NCBI GenBank assembly: GCA_947383145.1
Contig: CANDCH010000012.1
Span: 1-57,837 of the forward strand
DNA from: an uncultured bacterium
GTDB taxonomy: Bacteria > Bacillota > Clostridia > Oscillospirales > Oscillospiraceae
DNA length: 57,837 bases
Direction: 5' to 3'
The stretch's first letter is position 1; each line of letters opens with the position of its first letter. Of this stretch, positions 32,376 to 37,828 are shown in pieces. The translations under genes were made by a program, and so were the position numbers. Under the pieces are notes generated by a model, which was not told where the DNA came from, did not search any database, and saw nothing but the letters and a program-made list of their open reading frames with translations.

Positions 32376-34073
32376 TTACTGCAGCAGCTGGAGAACCCCC
32401 TGGGGAACCTGATTGGCCTGGGCCAGCATGGCCTGGGCGGACTGAATCAGGATGTTGTTCTTGGTGTAGGCCATCATCTCCTCGGCCACGTCCACATCGC
32501 GGATGGTGGACTCGGCGTCCTGGATGTTCTCGGTCATGACGGACAGGTTGTTGATGGTGTGGTCCAGACGGTTCTGGGTGGCGCCCAGAGTACCGCGGAC
32601 GTCGGACACCTTGTTGATGGCGGCCTTGATCATGTCAACGGCCTTGGCGGCGCTGTCTTGATCAGCGATGCTCATCTTGCTGGCATCAATGCCCAGGGAG
32701 GTGCAGTGCATATCGCCGATGTCCACCTTCAACTGGTTATAGCTGTCGGCGGTGTCGCCAATCTGGAGCTGCAGGCTCTTGCCGGTAGCGGCGCCTACGG
32801 CGGCCCAGCGGACGGCGCTCTCACTGGTGTCCGCGTTCTTCCAAGTGGCGTCGGAGGTCTGGCCGGCGGTGTTATCCTTGCCCTTCAGATCCCAGTCCTT
32901 GGCGTAGTCCACGGCACCTTTCTTCTCGGTCAGGTACACGGTGCCAGTCTGGCCGTCAGCAGTGATATCAAACTTGTCATTGGCCTTGCCCAGCTTACTC
33001 AGGGCGTTGGCGGCCTCCTTCAGCAGGTCGCCGTCGGTGAAAGCGGTCAGGTCGATGACGTTGGGGCCGGTGGCGGTATTACCCTTGCCCACCTGGAAGG
33101 TATAGGTGGTGTTGCCAATGGTGATCTGGTTGCCGTTCTTCACCATGCCCGCAGTCAGGGTGAAGTTGCCCTGAGCCAGGAGGGTATCCTCGCCCTTCTG
33201 CCGCTCCTCAGCGACGTGGACGGCCAGATCCTCGCCCTGGTTGCCCGTACCGCTGGTAAAACCAAGAGCCGCAGTCATTGAGATGGTGAAGTCAGAGGTG
33301 GGATCCTCTTCGCCCTTCAGGGTGACCACGCCGTCCGCATAGGAAACTGTAAACACATGACCAGTGTCTGCAGTAATGGAGCTCACGAAGTCGCCCGCCG
33401 TCAGAACGGAGGCAAGACTGAACTCCGCGCCAGTTGCGGTGCAGGTGATGGAAACGCCTGCCGCAGCCAATACGGACTGACCACCAATGGTCAGGGTTAC
33501 GTCAATATTGGCAGCGTCGGTGCCCTTGACAGTCACTTGGCCCAGATCCAGTGTATACTCGCCCTTCTGGGTTGCCTTGGTGGCCTGAGAACCGTCATTA
33601 GTAGCAGAAACGTTCACAGCCTGAAGATCGCCCAGGGTGCCGGTACCGCTCATGGAACCGTCCAGCAGGTTGATGCCGTTGAAGTTAGAGCTGTCGGCGA
33701 TACGGTCGATCTCGTCCCGCAGCTGGTTGATCTCCTTCTGCATCTGGGCGCGGTCGGTGGTGTTGTCGTAGGTGCCGTTGGCGGACTGGGTGGCCAGCTC
33801 CACCATACGGTTGAGCATATCGTGGACCTCGGTCAGGGCGCCCTCGGCGGTCTGCACCAGGGAGATGCCGTCCTTCGCGTTCTTCTGGGCGGTCTCCAGG
33901 CCGGTGATCTGGGCGCGCATCTTCTCGCTGATGGCCAGACCGGCGGCGTCGTCGCCGGCGCGGTTGATCTTGTAGCCGGAGGAGAGCTTCTCCAGGTTCT
34001 TCTTCATGGCGGAGACGTTGTTGGTGTAGTTGCGGTAGGCCGACATGGCCATGATGTTATGCTGAATCCTCAT
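32376..34073 (-). CDS. hag: Flagellin
   Basis: 565 residues. N-terminal D0/D1 domain MRIQHNIMAMSAYRNYTNN and KKNLEKLSSGYKINRAGDDA; C-terminal D1/D0 with VRGTLGATQNRLDHTINNL, ILIQSAQAMLAQANQ and LQLLQ at the end. The central ~300 residues are variable, rich in Thr, Asp, Gly and Ala, exposed on the filament and the likely site of glycan or other decoration. It is longer than the 304-residue Bacillus Hag. It is exported by the flagellar type III system. Its leader carries two CsrA-type hairpins, and the following genes encode phosphonate and sulfate-type chemistry. Confidence 0.97.
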   Translation of the reverse strand: MRIQHNIMAMSAYRNYTNNVSAMKKNLEKLSSGYKINRAGDDAAGLAISEKMRAQITGLETAQKNAKDGISLVQTAEGALTEVHDMLNRMVELATQSANGTYDNTTDRAQMQKEINQLRDEIDRIADSSNFNGINLLDGSMSGTGTLGDLQAVNVSATNDGSQATKATQKGEYTLDLGQVTVKGTDAANIDVTLTIGGQSVLAAAGVSITCTATGAEFSLASVLTAGDFVSSITADTGHVFTVSYADGVVTLKGEEDPTSDFTISMTAALGFTSGTGNQGEDLAVHVAEERQKGEDTLLAQGNFTLTAGMVKNGNQITIGNTTYTFQVGKGNTATGPNVIDLTAFTDGDLLKEAANALSKLGKANDKFDITADGQTGTVYLTEKKGAVDYAKDWDLKGKDNTAGQTSDATWKNADTSESAVRWAAVGAATGKSLQLQIGDTADSYNQLKVDIGDMHCTSLGIDASKMSIADQDSAAKAVDMIKAAINKVSDVRGTLGATQNRLDHTINNLSVMTENIQDAESTIRDVDVAEEMMAYTKNNILIQSAQAMLAQANQVPQGVLQLLQ

Positions 34074-34075
34074 TT

Positions 34076-34090
34076 TATAGTCCTCCTATA
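34076..34090 (-). promoter_or_regulatory. Flagellin Shine-Dalgarno hairpin (CsrA site 2 candidate)
   Basis: Minus strand TATAGGAGGACTATA: perfect five-bp stem TATAG/CTATA with the Shine-Dalgarno GAGGA in the loop, directly before the flagellin start. Binding of CsrA to this GGA would block the ribosome. Confidence 0.65.
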
Positions 34091-34123
34091 AATAAAATGA
34101 TTGCTGGGGTGATTCGGCGCGCC

Positions 34124-34139
34124 GGGACGTCCGTGTCCC
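34124..34139 (-). promoter_or_regulatory. CsrA-type hexaloop hairpin in the flagellin leader (site 1)
   Basis: Minus strand GGGACACGGACGTCCC: five-bp stem GGGAC/GTCCC and six-base loop ACGGAC, which is the ANGGAN hexaloop preferred by CsrA. The stretch ACACGGACGT matches 8 of 10 positions of the ACARGGAUGU core of the SELEX consensus. It lies about 50 bases before the start codon. Confidence 0.7.
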
Positions 34140-34221: not shown

Positions 34222-34569
34222 TCAGCCGTTTGAAACCGAACTGGGAAACATATGCTCCAACTGGCGGCGCAGGGTCTGCACATCGCTGTCCCTGCCGTCC
34301 ATCCGGGCCAGCAGCGTCCGCATGGCGGTGAGCGCTTGGGCCTTGCTACGATCCCAGGGGATCTCCCTTCGGTGCCAGCGGGGCGTGTCAAACACGCAGT
34401 CCGGGCGCTGCCCGCCGGTGCGCTCCAGCACCTCGCCCCGCAGGATGGTGAGTTCCTTTGGCGCGTCGATCAACAGCTTGCAGCGGTCGCCGCTGATGCG
34501 GTCGAGCTGAACCACCACATTGTCACCGACTGTCATATACTCCCCTGGCTTCAGATTCAAGCTGAGCAT
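34222..34569 (-). CDS. csrA: CsrA-like RNA-binding regulator with C-terminal extension
   Basis: 115 residues; start MLSLNLKPGEYMTVGDNVVV at 34569 behind AAAGGAG. The first ~50 residues are CsrA: GD-x-x in the third position of the strand, IDAPKELTILRGEV with Arg44 conserved. Arg6 of the usual N-terminal RNA-contact strand is Leu here. The C-terminal ~65 residues (from RTGGQRPDCVFDTPRW) are an extension not found in ordinary 60-75-residue CsrA. CsrA represses flagellin translation in Firmicutes and is titrated by FliW; no fliW is in the window. The gene lies 148 bases before flagellin and downstream of the TnpB-like gene. Confidence 0.85.
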   Translation of the reverse strand: MLSLNLKPGEYMTVGDNVVVQLDRISGDRCKLLIDAPKELTILRGEVLERTGGQRPDCVFDTPRWHRREIPWDRSKAQALTAMRTLLARMDGRDSDVQTLRRQLEHMFPSSVSNG

Positions 34570-34699
34570 GGCTGCAACTCCTTTGCGGTTTGGCGGTTCG
34601 GTGTTCCATCCTTCCGCCCCGCGCGGCAAGCCCGCGCGTTTTCATCGTCATAATATTTTGGACAGCCCCGAGGGCTTTCAGATGTGCGTACACACCCTC

Positions 34700-34850
34700 T
34701 CGTTTCCCACTCTGCAGCCTGGAAAACGCTGAGTGAAGCAGAACCACGATATTCTGTTTCACTCAATGTTCCCAGCCGGAATCATGGGCTTTCACTGGTG
34801 TCCCAACCAGCATAGCGTGGAATCAATATCTGCTAAGCGGCTTCCCGCTC
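34700..34850 (-). ncRNA. Candidate omega/guide RNA of the TnpB-like protein
   Basis: The 263 bases between the TnpB-like stop (34833) and csrA (34569) have no ORF but strong secondary structure. The main hairpin is 34730-34765: minus strand TGAGTGAAACAGAA, 8-base loop, TTCTGCTTCACTCA (one mismatch). TnpB guide RNAs overlap the 3' end of the gene and end in a short guide beyond the scaffold. If this hairpin closes the scaffold, the guide would start at 34729 and run leftward (GCGTTTTCCAGGCTGC...). Borders are approximate; no small-RNA data are available. Confidence 0.45.
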
Positions 34851-36014
34851 CTGCATACTGAAATATTGGGCAAGCCCCTGTGCCTTGACGTTTTTCGCGG
34901 CGTTGACCTCCCGGTCATGTACCGCGCCGCATTTGGGGCAAACCCAGGTTCCCTTGCGGTGGGGTTTGTCGTTTCGGACGAACCCGCAGGCGGAACAAGT
35001 CCTTGTGGTAAGGGCGGCACGGTCTACTACGATCAGCGCCTTGCCCTGCCGAGCCAGCTTATAGCGCAGGCACTCCCGGAACATTCCAAACCCGCTCTCC
35101 AATGCGTTCCCCGGGAGTATCTTCTTTTTTGATACGTCCCGCAGGTCATCGCCCCTCACGCACACGGCATCCCAGCCGTTGGCTATCCGGCTGGATTCCT
35201 TGTGGATGAAGTCGCGGCGCTGGTTGGCGATGTGCTCGTGGAGCAAACGGTACTTCTGAACGGCTTCTGCGTAGTTTTTGGAACCTGGTTCCATCCGGCT
35301 GAGCCGCTTCTGGAGCTTCGCCAGCCTTTCCTGGGAGGCTTTCAGCCAGTGGGGCGGGTCAGCCAGTTCACCGCTGTCCGCCACGTAGAAGTGGCCCATG
35401 GAATATTTCAGTCCAACGGTGGTATCCGGGGTAGGGGTAACTGCCTCCGGCTCCTTCACGATGTACTCATACAGGATGTAGGCGAAGTATTTGCCTGTTT
35501 TGGTTTTCTCCACTGTGACCCGTTTCAACTTCCAGCCGTTTCGAGGGCGGCGGGAGAACTTGGCCTTGACGGTCCCTGCCTTGGTCATACGAATGCCGTC
35601 CCTGATGATGTAAATGGTGGGGCCGGACTCAAAGACATGGTTACAGGCGGTGAAGGAGTCCTTATCGGTCTTTTTCTTTTTGAACTTTGGCGCGCCGAAG
35701 GTTTTGGGGTCTTTGAAGAACACCCGAAACGCCTGAGAAAGCTTGTTGTGTTCCTGGATCAGCGCCTGGTTATCCACTTCCTTTAAAAAGGGGGCCTCGC
35801 TTTTATACTTGGCCGGGGTGGGGATGAAGTGCTGGTCGGTCTCCAGGTAAAACCGCTGCTGGTCGGCCAGCATATGGTTCCAGATCCAGCGGCAACAGCC
35901 GAAGGTGTTCTCAAACAGCTCCGCCTGAGCCTCGTCAGGGTAGAGCCGAACCTTGAGGGTGGTGTATTGAACCGTTTTGCCGTCCTCAATCTGTTTTCTT
36001 GGCGCTCTCGGCAT
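34833..36014 (-). CDS. TnpB-like protein with dead RuvC site (TldR candidate)
   Basis: 393 residues, full length for an IS605-type TnpB. N-terminal WED/REC-type part with RLYPDEAQAELFENTFGCCR and LSQAFRVFFKDPK, RuvC domain from ~195 and a zinc ribbon (Cys340, 343, 359, 362). The RuvC triad is lost: motif I reads VGLKYSMG where active relatives have GLDYS (Asp to Lys203); motif II reads AVCVRGDDL where AVCVEDL is expected (Glu to Arg287, or Asp289 with a shifted alignment); motif III reads HDREVNAAKN where DRDVNAA is expected (Asp to Glu369). No frameshift or stop. No transposase TnpA is adjacent. An intact frame with an ablated site suggests exaptation as an RNA-guided DNA-binding repressor. 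Confidence 0.88.
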   Translation of the reverse strand: MPRAPRKQIEDGKTVQYTTLKVRLYPDEAQAELFENTFGCCRWIWNHMLADQQRFYLETDQHFIPTPAKYKSEAPFLKEVDNQALIQEHNKLSQAFRVFFKDPKTFGAPKFKKKKTDKDSFTACNHVFESGPTIYIIRDGIRMTKAGTVKAKFSRRPRNGWKLKRVTVEKTKTGKYFAYILYEYIVKEPEAVTPTPDTTVGLKYSMGHFYVADSGELADPPHWLKASQERLAKLQKRLSRMEPGSKNYAEAVQKYRLLHEHIANQRRDFIHKESSRIANGWDAVCVRGDDLRDVSKKKILPGNALESGFGMFRECLRYKLARQGKALIVVDRAALTTRTCSACGFVRNDKPHRKGTWVCPKCGAVHDREVNAAKNVKAQGLAQYFSMQEREAA

Positions 36015-36042: not shown

Positions 36043-36420
36043 TCATCTTGCGCTCTCTACCCGCACCACCGCATCTCGGAAGGTCGCGTGAGACATCCCA
36101 CAGGCTCCTGCCGCCTGCCGGAGGGTCATCTGTCCGTCCCGCCATGCCTCGCGGCACTCCTCAAAATTGTCCGGCAAAGGCTTGCGCCGTGCGCCGAACC
36201 GAACACCCCGTGCCTTTGCCGCCGCGATCCCCTCCGCCTGTTTCTGGCGGCGGTATTCCCGGCGTTCTTCCTCCGCGACAGAGAGGAACAGCTCCGAAAC
36301 AAAAGCGCCCAGCAATTCTTTGCTGTGGGATGGATCCAGTTTTGAAATCTCGGACAGGACGTCCTGCGCCAACTGGCGAAGATAATCCTGAGGCCCTTCC
36401 GCATTGGGATTTGCTGACAT
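36043..36420 (-). CDS. Resolvase-derived HTH protein without catalytic domain
   Basis: 125 residues from MSANPNAEGPQDYLRQ; the longer frame to 36549 crosses a palindrome and has no support. The last ~80 residues (RQKQAEGIAAAKARGVRFGA, then LPDNFEECREAWRDGQMTLR and AAGACGMSHATFRDAV) match the linker and HTH of the serine resolvase encoded next door at 36603-37226. The catalytic domain is replaced by an unrelated helical ~45 residues. It ends 28 bases before the TnpB-like start, so the two are probably co-transcribed. It likely binds a resolvase-type site; role unknown. Confidence 0.8.
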   Translation of the reverse strand: MSANPNAEGPQDYLRQLAQDVLSEISKLDPSHSKELLGAFVSELFLSVAEEERREYRRQKQAEGIAAAKARGVRFGARRKPLPDNFEECREAWRDGQMTLRQAAGACGMSHATFRDAVVRVESAR

Positions 36421-36454: not shown

Positions 36455-36484
36455 AAGTCCGGGGTTGTATACAACCCCGGACTT
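36455..36484. repeat. Perfect 30-bp palindrome upstream of the HTH gene
   Basis: AAGTCCGGGGTTGTA and its exact complement TACAACCCCGGACTT, 34 bases upstream of the HTH gene start. On plus it is followed by AAAAAATTTTTC; on minus by ATTTGTTG. It may be the terminator of the resolvase gene or an operator for the HTH protein or resolvase. CCCCGGAC recurs at 36588. Confidence 0.75.
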
Positions 36485-36602
36485 AAAAAATTTTTCTGGA
36501 AAGTCTTATTTTCAAAGCGGCTATGCCGATATGTAGTACAGAACGCCATGTAATTACTAAAAATTTTCCTGGCCGGAGAAGTATGAAACCCCGGACAGGA
36601 TT

Positions 36603-37226
36603 TTATTTTGCCTCTATGCGCCCTTCCGCCATCTCCGCGCGGAGGACGGCGTCATAAAATGTGGATCTTGGGACGCCGCAGGTTTTCGCTGCCGCCCGCA
36701 ATGACATCTGCTTGTTCCGCCATGCCTGCCGCAGTTCCTCAAAGTTGTCCGGCAATGTCTTGGGAGGCGGGCCGAAATGCACCCCTTTCGCTTTTGCTGC
36801 CGCGATGCCCTCCGCCTGCCGCTGGCGGATATTTTCCCGCTCCGTCTGCGCCACATAGCTGAGCAGCTGGAGGACAATATCGGCGATCAGCGTCCCGGTC
36901 AGGTCGCGCCCCTGCCGGGTGTCCAACAGAGGCATGTCCAGCACCACGATGGCCGCCTTGCGTTCCTTTGTGATGAGGGCCCACTGCTCCAATATCTCAT
37001 CATAATTGCGTCCCAGCCGGTCAATGCTTTTGACCACCAGGATATCCTCCGGCCGCAGCCGTTTTACCATGCGTTGGTAGCGGGGACGGTTGAAATCTTT
37101 CCCGGACAGCTTCTCCATGATGATATTTTCCTCCGCCACCCCAAATTTCCGCATGGCGGCAAGCTGGCGGGCCTCGTTTTGCTCCTGTGTGGACACCCGC
37201 ACGTAACCATAAGTCGTTCCTTCCAT
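36603..37226 (-). CDS. Serine resolvase/invertase (Tn3 resolvase family)
   Basis: 207 residues. Catalytic domain: YGYVRVSTQEQN (nucleophile Ser12), EKLSGKDFNRPRYQRM and VVKSIDRLGRNYDEI with the conserved Arg residues, then the E-helix GTLIADIVLQLLSYVAQTER in parts, and a C-terminal HTH (SLRAAAKTCGVPRSTFYDAV). All catalytic residues expected for the family are present, so it is probably active. Target site unknown; no inverted-repeat-flanked promoter was found nearby. The N-terminus follows GGAGG. Confidence 0.93.
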   Translation of the reverse strand: MEGTTYGYVRVSTQEQNEARQLAAMRKFGVAEENIIMEKLSGKDFNRPRYQRMVKRLRPEDILVVKSIDRLGRNYDEILEQWALITKERKAAIVVLDMPLLDTRQGRDLTGTLIADIVLQLLSYVAQTERENIRQRQAEGIAAAKAKGVHFGPPPKTLPDNFEELRQAWRNKQMSLRAAAKTCGVPRSTFYDAVLRAEMAEGRIEAK

Positions 37227-37376: not shown

Positions 37377-37643
37377 TTACAGACAAAGCGACACCTGATA
37401 TCCGGCCAGGAGTTCATGTCCCAGGGCCGTCCGGCTGGCTCGGGCAAAGTTCGTGCTTCTCACGGGACACATGTTCTTGACCATCTGGCCGCCCACGGAG
37501 CCCGCCTGACGGCTGGTCAGGTCGCCGTTGTAGCCCTGCTTCAGGTTGACGCCAACCTCGTTGGCCGCCTCCATCTTGAACTTATCCATGGCCTCACGGG
37601 CGCCGGGGACCACCAGACGGTTGGAATTATTGCTGTTAGACAT
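37377..37643 (-). CDS. Alpha/beta-type small acid-soluble spore protein
   Basis: 88 residues from MSNSNNSNRLVVPGAREAMD behind GAACAAGGATAT (AAGGA). Matches the family core: KFKMEAANEVGVNLKQGYNG, DLTSRQAGSVGGQMVKNM. These proteins coat spore DNA and are cleaved by the GPR protease at germination. After VKNM the usual MIEAYE-type end is replaced by about 30 unrelated residues (CPVRSTNFARASRTALGHEL), so the C-terminus has been rewritten, perhaps by an indel. Its presence shows a sporulating lineage. Confidence 0.92.
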   Translation of the reverse strand: MSNSNNSNRLVVPGAREAMDKFKMEAANEVGVNLKQGYNGDLTSRQAGSVGGQMVKNMCPVRSTNFARASRTALGHELLAGYQVSLCL

Positions 37644-37828
37644 ATCCTTGTTCTCCTTTTTGAATCTGAATCGTTTTGGTTGGATCGGGAATCCGAGCAT
37701 AGTTTGAGCCGCCTCCGTTTTTATATGCGGCGGCGGCGCTGGTAAATTTCGTTTTCACTGGAAAACAGGACGGCTGGCCTGTGCGCGTCTATTTATATGA
37801 TGACCGAACCGGCCGGACCGCGGAAAAA

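Follow-up and report, generated by a model that had tools for sequence, protein, structure and literature searches.

A nuclease-dead TnpB homologue beside csrA and flagellin: a candidate RNA-guided repressor of an alternative flagellin in a presumably phase-variable module

What would a full-length TnpB homologue be doing beside csrA and a flagellin gene if its nuclease site has been replaced? Such a gene lies in the window, meaning the whole stretch of DNA that was analysed, 57,837 nucleotides from an uncultured member of the Oscillospiraceae. Nuclease-dead TnpB homologues were reportedly given the name TldR in a 2024 paper. A first, sequence-only reading of the window had proposed the gene as a TldR candidate that regulates a motility-related promoter, or csrA or hag itself. 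The locus carries the following features, in which L numbers are our handles for the loci compared.

32376..34073 (-): hag (flagellin), the linked copy; Pfam and a flagellin search of the assembly
34074..34092 (-): hag-leader hairpin with the Shine-Dalgarno sequence in its loop; RNA folding
34124..34139 (-): second hag-leader hairpin, GGGACACGGACGUCCC; RNA folding and a survey of leader motifs
34222..34569 (-): csrA paralogue; PF02599
34642..34658 (-): putative guide, AAATATTATGACGATGA, in the register of flagellin codons 5-11; comparison with active TnpBs
34659..34810 (-): guide-RNA scaffold downstream of tldR, 3' end GTCCA; alignment of 23 loci
34725..34770 (-): long scaffold stem-loop with 19-nt arms and an 8-nt gap; repeat search, fold and covariation
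34833..36014 (-): tldR, nuclease-dead TnpB homologue of 393 aa; ORF, Pfam, alignments and predicted model
36043..36420 (-): half-Hin, a Hin paralogue of about 125 aa that lacks the catalytic domain; similarity to the C-terminal half of Hin
36457..36482 (no strand): 26-bp palindromic recombination-site candidate, inverton end 1; repeat search and inversion boundary against L031 and L169
36525..36532 (+): putative SigD-type -10, GCCGATAT, inside the inverton and pointing away from tldR; sequence and promoter scan
36571..36596 (no strand): 26-bp recombination-site candidate, inverton end 2; repeat search and comparison with L031 and L169
36603..37226 (-): hin-like serine DNA invertase; PF00239

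The dead triad and its conservation

The tldR frame is intact, with an ATG start and no internal stops, and its protein matches the Pfam families HTH_OrfB_IS605, OrfB_IS605 and Cas12f1-like_TNB, each above the cut-off. Aligned by phmmer with ISDra2 TnpB (8bf8/8h1j), it has K203 (GLKYS) where motif I has its Asp (GVDVG), R287 (VCVRGDD) where motif II has its Glu, and E369 (HDREVNAA) where motif III has its Asp (HDRDENAA). E369 is the only acidic residue at the triad sites. Judged from this alignment, the RuvC triad is inactivated. The zinc ribbon is complete, with C340, C343, C359 and C362 invariant in a 29-row alignment that includes the window. An AlphaFold2 model (m5e183e8caef6), for which the input was 29 sequences from the window and the loci, has a mean pLDDT of 83.2 and a pTM of 0.67; its best PDB match by E-value is TnpB 8h1j, with TM 0.72/0.78. 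The sequence-only reading had described the protein correctly as full length, with all RuvC residues replaced, an intact frame and a complete zinc ribbon. It had also seen no TnpA, and a search for Y1_Tnp in the window's own genome, which is 85% complete, gave no match. The only TnpB match in that genome is tldR itself.

The triad was surveyed in 55 aligned rows, L001 and L038 having been omitted because they duplicate the window and L015. Twenty-seven rows, including the window, have an identity of at least about 65%. Every one of the 24 among them with a readable residue at each of the three sites (the window and 23 relatives) has K/R/E, which argues against chance as the source of the dead triad; of the other three, L049 reads K only, and L020 and L056 are unreadable. 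None of the seven sister rows, at 50-54% identity, has D/E/D: five read S, N or H, then R, then E, and two are partial (L052 Q/K and L053 S/T). The full D/E/D is present in eight distant rows at 26-34% identity. The dead site is not merely eroded; it is fixed as K/R/E across the group. Among the best 80 of 508 viral-contig relatives, 78 read D/E/D, one reads D/E/gap and one K/R/E. The last is L169, an IMG/VR contig with a TldR 72% identical to that of the window and the whole gene set present. A TnpB relative at E 1e-5 occurs in 374 of 50,697 phage records, every one at less than 60% identity.

In a tree of 36 rows, from which L015 and rows shorter than 320 aa were excluded, the 29-row dead group falls together on one side of a branch; the support is moderate (75/88), and there are long-branch warnings. 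The sequence-only reading had named close homologues with an intact triad in scattered positions as evidence that would speak against a TldR. These were looked for and none was seen, the nearest D/E/D relative among the matches listed being only 41% identical (L170). A TnpB homologue of ~30% identity outside the csrA group, at L011:1501-2250 (-), has the triad R/R/A. Broken or truncated relatives are found at L006, L163 and L055.

The guide RNA and its probable target

A scaffold downstream of tldR is common to 23 of 32 downstream flanks. Its structure was obtained with RNAalifold on a MAFFT alignment that omitted the seven sister-clade rows, L055 and L030. There are 36 consensus pairs, of which 28 have a compensatory change. 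Paired cells amount to 96.1%, as against a mean of 84.7% and a maximum of 86.7% in 500 shuffles, with the pairing scored on the alignment that yielded the structure. By covariation over the 23 loci, a structured guide RNA appears to be encoded beside tldR. Rfam at its gathering thresholds matched nothing in the window. The scaffolds of the nearest active TnpBs end in GTCACA, compared to GTCCA at the window, and since they do, we set the start of the guide just after GTCCA, which gives probable boundaries of 34642..34658. In a sister TldR group (L050, L051, L004, L019, L005), the guide start is CTCAACATAATATT or close to it, followed by variable sequence. This suggests a shorter guide of about 9 nt against the same flagellin codons. 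At L107, a guide-RNA 3' end without tldR lies upstream of a flagellin gene and behind a SigD-like promoter; it is either a remnant or an orphan guide RNA.

The conserved dead residues, the linkage to csrA and hag, the structured guide RNA and the published csrA-associated TldRs together support the identification of the gene as a TldR, a nuclease-dead TnpB repressor, as the sequence-only reading had suspected. A TnpB of an insertion element that is still mobile or active would likewise have the full-length fold and the zinc ribbon, but its three RuvC residues would not be replaced by residues that are fixed in the group. The single copy in the genome, the recurring chromosomal neighborhood and the failure to find TnpA in the 85%-complete assembly also count against this reading, to which we give next to no weight; an active IS200-IS605 TnpB element was rejected for the missing D/E/D and for the TnpA partner not found in that assembly. 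Slightly better placed, although still very improbable, is the reading of tldR as a decaying remnant without function. Broken or truncated copies occur among the relatives (L006, L163 and L055), and L107 retains the 3' part of the guide RNA only, without tldR. Against decay, the frame at the window is intact, the zinc ligands and the substituted RuvC residues are conserved over 65-90% identity, and the guide RNA has accumulated compensatory changes.

If the gene is a TldR, the question becomes where its guide would take it. The guide AAATATTATGACGATGA resembles flagellin codons 5-11, CAC AAT ATT ATG GCG ATG. We scanned 14-mers at offsets 0-12 of the guide-RNA 3' end against the flagellin regions of the same genome, from -400 to +2000 and with guide-RNA copies masked. 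At offset 3, which starts two bases before the putative guide, 20 of 21 loci have their best match in the register of codons 5-11, and 4 to 19 loci do so at the remaining offsets. A guide located farther downstream (offsets 12-28) was considered and rejected, the mean best matches being 11.05-11.38 versus 10.71-11.38 for shuffled sequences over 21 loci. One mismatch, which counts against the proposed target, is fixed: 22 of 22 guides have an A where every flagellin compared has the G that is the first base of an Ala codon (34648 (-) in the window). When guides were permuted among genomes, the score was as high in 2267 of 5000 permutations for any flagellin and in 747 of 5000 for unlinked flagellins, neither of which is significant; there is little variation among the guides, so that exchanging them between genomes leaves the match no poorer.

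Of 18 loci, 15 have a guide that fits an unlinked flagellin better than it fits the linked hag, two are ties and one is the reverse (L160). This count favors the unlinked side where the best of several unlinked flagellins is taken, and some of the "unlinked" flagellins adjoin a further tldR in the same genome (L112, L089). In the nine loci for which a single linked and a single unlinked flagellin were compared, the unlinked one is better in eight and tied in one. The comparison dropped matches without a start site or a fetched locus (e.g., L074, L076, L114, L115 and G156:C62), as well as the sister-clade guides of L050, L051 and L052, which have a different 3' end. Where the linked hags depart from the guide, it is mostly through synonymous codons (AAC, ATC or ATA) that face its 5' part. 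In the window's own 85%-complete genome, no target was found within 3/24 or 1/14 mismatches, apart from the guide RNA. The one flagellin start in that assembly is the linked hag; the one other Flagellin_N match scores 44 bits and lies in a frame of 1094 aa, where tblastn with Hag finds no flagellin start.

TldR could instead be autoregulatory, repressing the linked hag or the csrA-hag unit and not an unlinked flagellin. The linked hag is after all the only flagellin start at hand in this assembly, the guide matches it at 11 of 15 positions in the same register, and the guide of L160 fits its own linked hag best. We nevertheless regard autoregulation as unlikely, given the better fit of the unlinked flagellin in 15 of the 18 loci and the synonymous changes that most linked hags have under the 5' part of the guide. 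An alternative flagellin is probably the target, csrA or hag itself being less likely. Of the targets named in the sequence-only reading, the motility-related one is thus supported in part, and hag itself is the less likely one, since the guides of the relatives fit unlinked flagellin better.

The gene neighborhood and the promoter inverton

The gene order hin, tldR, guide RNA, csrA, hag is recurrent. Among the 23 loci with enough sequence, the window included, csrA lies within 1.5 kb downstream of tldR in 18; those without a nearby csrA are L042, L044, L047, L019 and the fragment L055. A hag is found within 3 kb of tldR in 22 of 23 loci, again with the window included, and L055 is the exception. 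In 19 of 27 loci, including the window, the 1.5 kb upstream of tldR hold a Hin that retains its catalytic part, irrespective of orientation. The adjacency of csrA and flagellin had been noticed from the window by itself, with the suggestion that a tree might reveal a clade in which both the dead residues and the csrA linkage are conserved. The uniform K/R/E triads (24/24), the csrA linkage (18/23) and the branch support (75/88) are in keeping with such a clade.

A second csrA of the window's genome adjoins fliW on another contig, so the linked csrA is a paralogue. The leader of the linked hag folds into hairpins, with ANGGA in one loop and a z of -3.4 (120 nt). We take the hairpins at 34074..34092 and 34124..34139 to be CsrA-site-like, and on that account CsrA may act on the linked hag too. 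CsrA-like motifs, surveyed across flagellin leaders, occur in linked and unlinked copies alike, with no clean rule. The modules are mosaic: in L031, TldR is 90% identical to that of the window, CsrA 48% and Hag 55%, and in L129, CsrA is 84% identical and TldR 71%. Upstream of hin is a gene for a small acid-soluble spore protein, at 37377-37700 (-), from which the host lineage is probably spore-forming.

The centers of the two inverton sites are about 114 bp apart. Between them lies GCCGATAT at 36525..36532, which by its consensus we presume to be a SigD-type -10; the -35 of this promoter (TTAT) is weak. When the core of the inverton is compared to L031, whose TldR is 90% identical, the score is 45 in the inverted and 13 in the same orientation, against a shuffled maximum of 14. 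The whole segment compared to L169 scores 55 inverted and 16 in the same orientation, against a shuffled maximum of 15. The hin flank keeps the same orientation in the window, L031 and L169, and the tldR-side flank of the window fails to align to L031 or L169 (scores 11-12). L032 shares the orientation of the window (core 26 vs. 12). SigD-type promoters were also seen in L047, where it is full and directed toward tldR, and in L040 and L043, where it is directed away. Since the segment is inverted relative to L031 and L169, we read the inverton of the window as being in the OFF orientation, pointing away from tldR. The top NCBIfam match of the hin-like recombinase is an Mpi-family invertase, below its cut-off. 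IS607 TnpA was rejected as an identity for 36603-37226 on a score of 27.7 bits against a cut-off of 110 and on the Hin-type architecture, with an N-terminal catalytic domain and a C-terminal HTH.

There is one more gene between the inverton and tldR. The ORF listed for half-Hin is 168 aa and extends back into the inverton. Eleven members were aligned. The gene immediately precedes tldR in the window, L031, L032, L039, L056 and L169 and lies between tldR and csrA in L053 and L103. In L116, L136 and L139 it adjoins csrA-hag, and the 3.3-3.4 kb examined contain no match to tldR or the guide RNA. It is tempting, although rather doubtful, to suppose that half-Hin, with its dimer helix and DNA-binding domain kept, is transcribed from the inverton, binds the recombination sites and locks or biases the flip. 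If so, the locus would select flagellin in a self-reinforcing way at three levels, by inversion of DNA, by RNA-guided repression inside the flagellin start and by CsrA, and its modules would be shuffled between loci. Half-Hin is an additional component that lends itself to testing.

Proposed mechanism and known systems

We favor, with a probability of roughly 0.8, a csrA-associated TldR that is guided to the start of an alternative flagellin gene and spares the linked hag, all inside a phase-variable module. A transposon nuclease would have become an RNA-guided DNA-binding repressor. A guide RNA derived from the flank 3' of tldR would bring it to the first codons of the alternative flagellin gene, in which we would expect AATATTATGGC at codons 6-10, and TldR sitting there would block transcription. 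Differences at synonymous positions would spare the linked hag, and the linked CsrA paralogue would add translational control of the flagellin mRNA. Since a Hin-type inverton with a SigD-type promoter lies upstream of the module, the module is presumably phase-variable, and it would be OFF in this assembly.

In Salmonella, the invertase Hin flips a promoter that controls flagellin choice, and a protein repressor, FljA, silences the other flagellin. The likeness extends to the Hin-type invertase, the flipped promoter and the choice of flagellin; where Salmonella uses the FljA protein, the window would use an RNA-guided TldR together with CsrA. The active TnpBs compared (ISDra2, 8bf8/8h1j, and L170, L171 and L172 at 37-41% identity) are alike in fold, HTH and zinc ribbon, and their scaffold end GTCACA resembles the GTCCA of the window. 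They differ in having D/E/D intact and, among the elements compared, in carrying DNA beyond the scaffold that changes between copies.

The linkage to csrA and flagellin and the hin with a SigD inverton fit membership of the window in the csrA-associated TldR clade, assigned by the features that passages of PMC13418256 (Nat Microbiol 2026) describe. Those passages report, for Oscillibacter and Flavonifractor, csrA-associated TldRs whose guides point into fliC ORFs, RIP-seq and ChIP-seq for the clade, binding of CsrA to the fliC 5' UTR, RNase III splitting the guide RNA of one Oscillibacter homologue in a stem, in the region where the window has its long stem-loop (34725..34770), and hin upstream, with ~120-bp inversions that carry a FliA/SigD promoter. 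As far as the passages go, the window shares the dead RuvC, the csrA and flagellin linkage, hin upstream, a SigD inverton on the ~120-bp scale, a downstream long-stem guide RNA and, to judge from its relatives, a guide that probably points into a flagellin ORF. It differs in that its own target was not found in the incomplete genome and in having the half-Hin gene between the inverton and tldR; half-Hin is not mentioned in the text passages on hin and recombinases, figures aside. Neither the fixed K/R/E triad nor the swapping of modules between loci was met in the passages.

According to the same paper (PMC13418256, passages), the fliC-associated TldR of Enterobacter prophages carries out RNA-guided repression of a competing flagellin, and its module carries a flagellin of its own. 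In this it resembles the arrangement proposed here; it differs in being phage-encoded, and the passages do not mention csrA or hin for it. With the window, the small set of domesticated TnpB regulators gains a lineage, and the occurrence of both inverton orientations in close relatives gives direct access to the phase-variable, RNA-guided choice of flagellin in gut commensals. In the genome of Oscillibacter sp. 1-3 (L041), tldR occurs at four places, of which one is broken; this resembles what the legend to Figure 6j of PMC13418256 describes.
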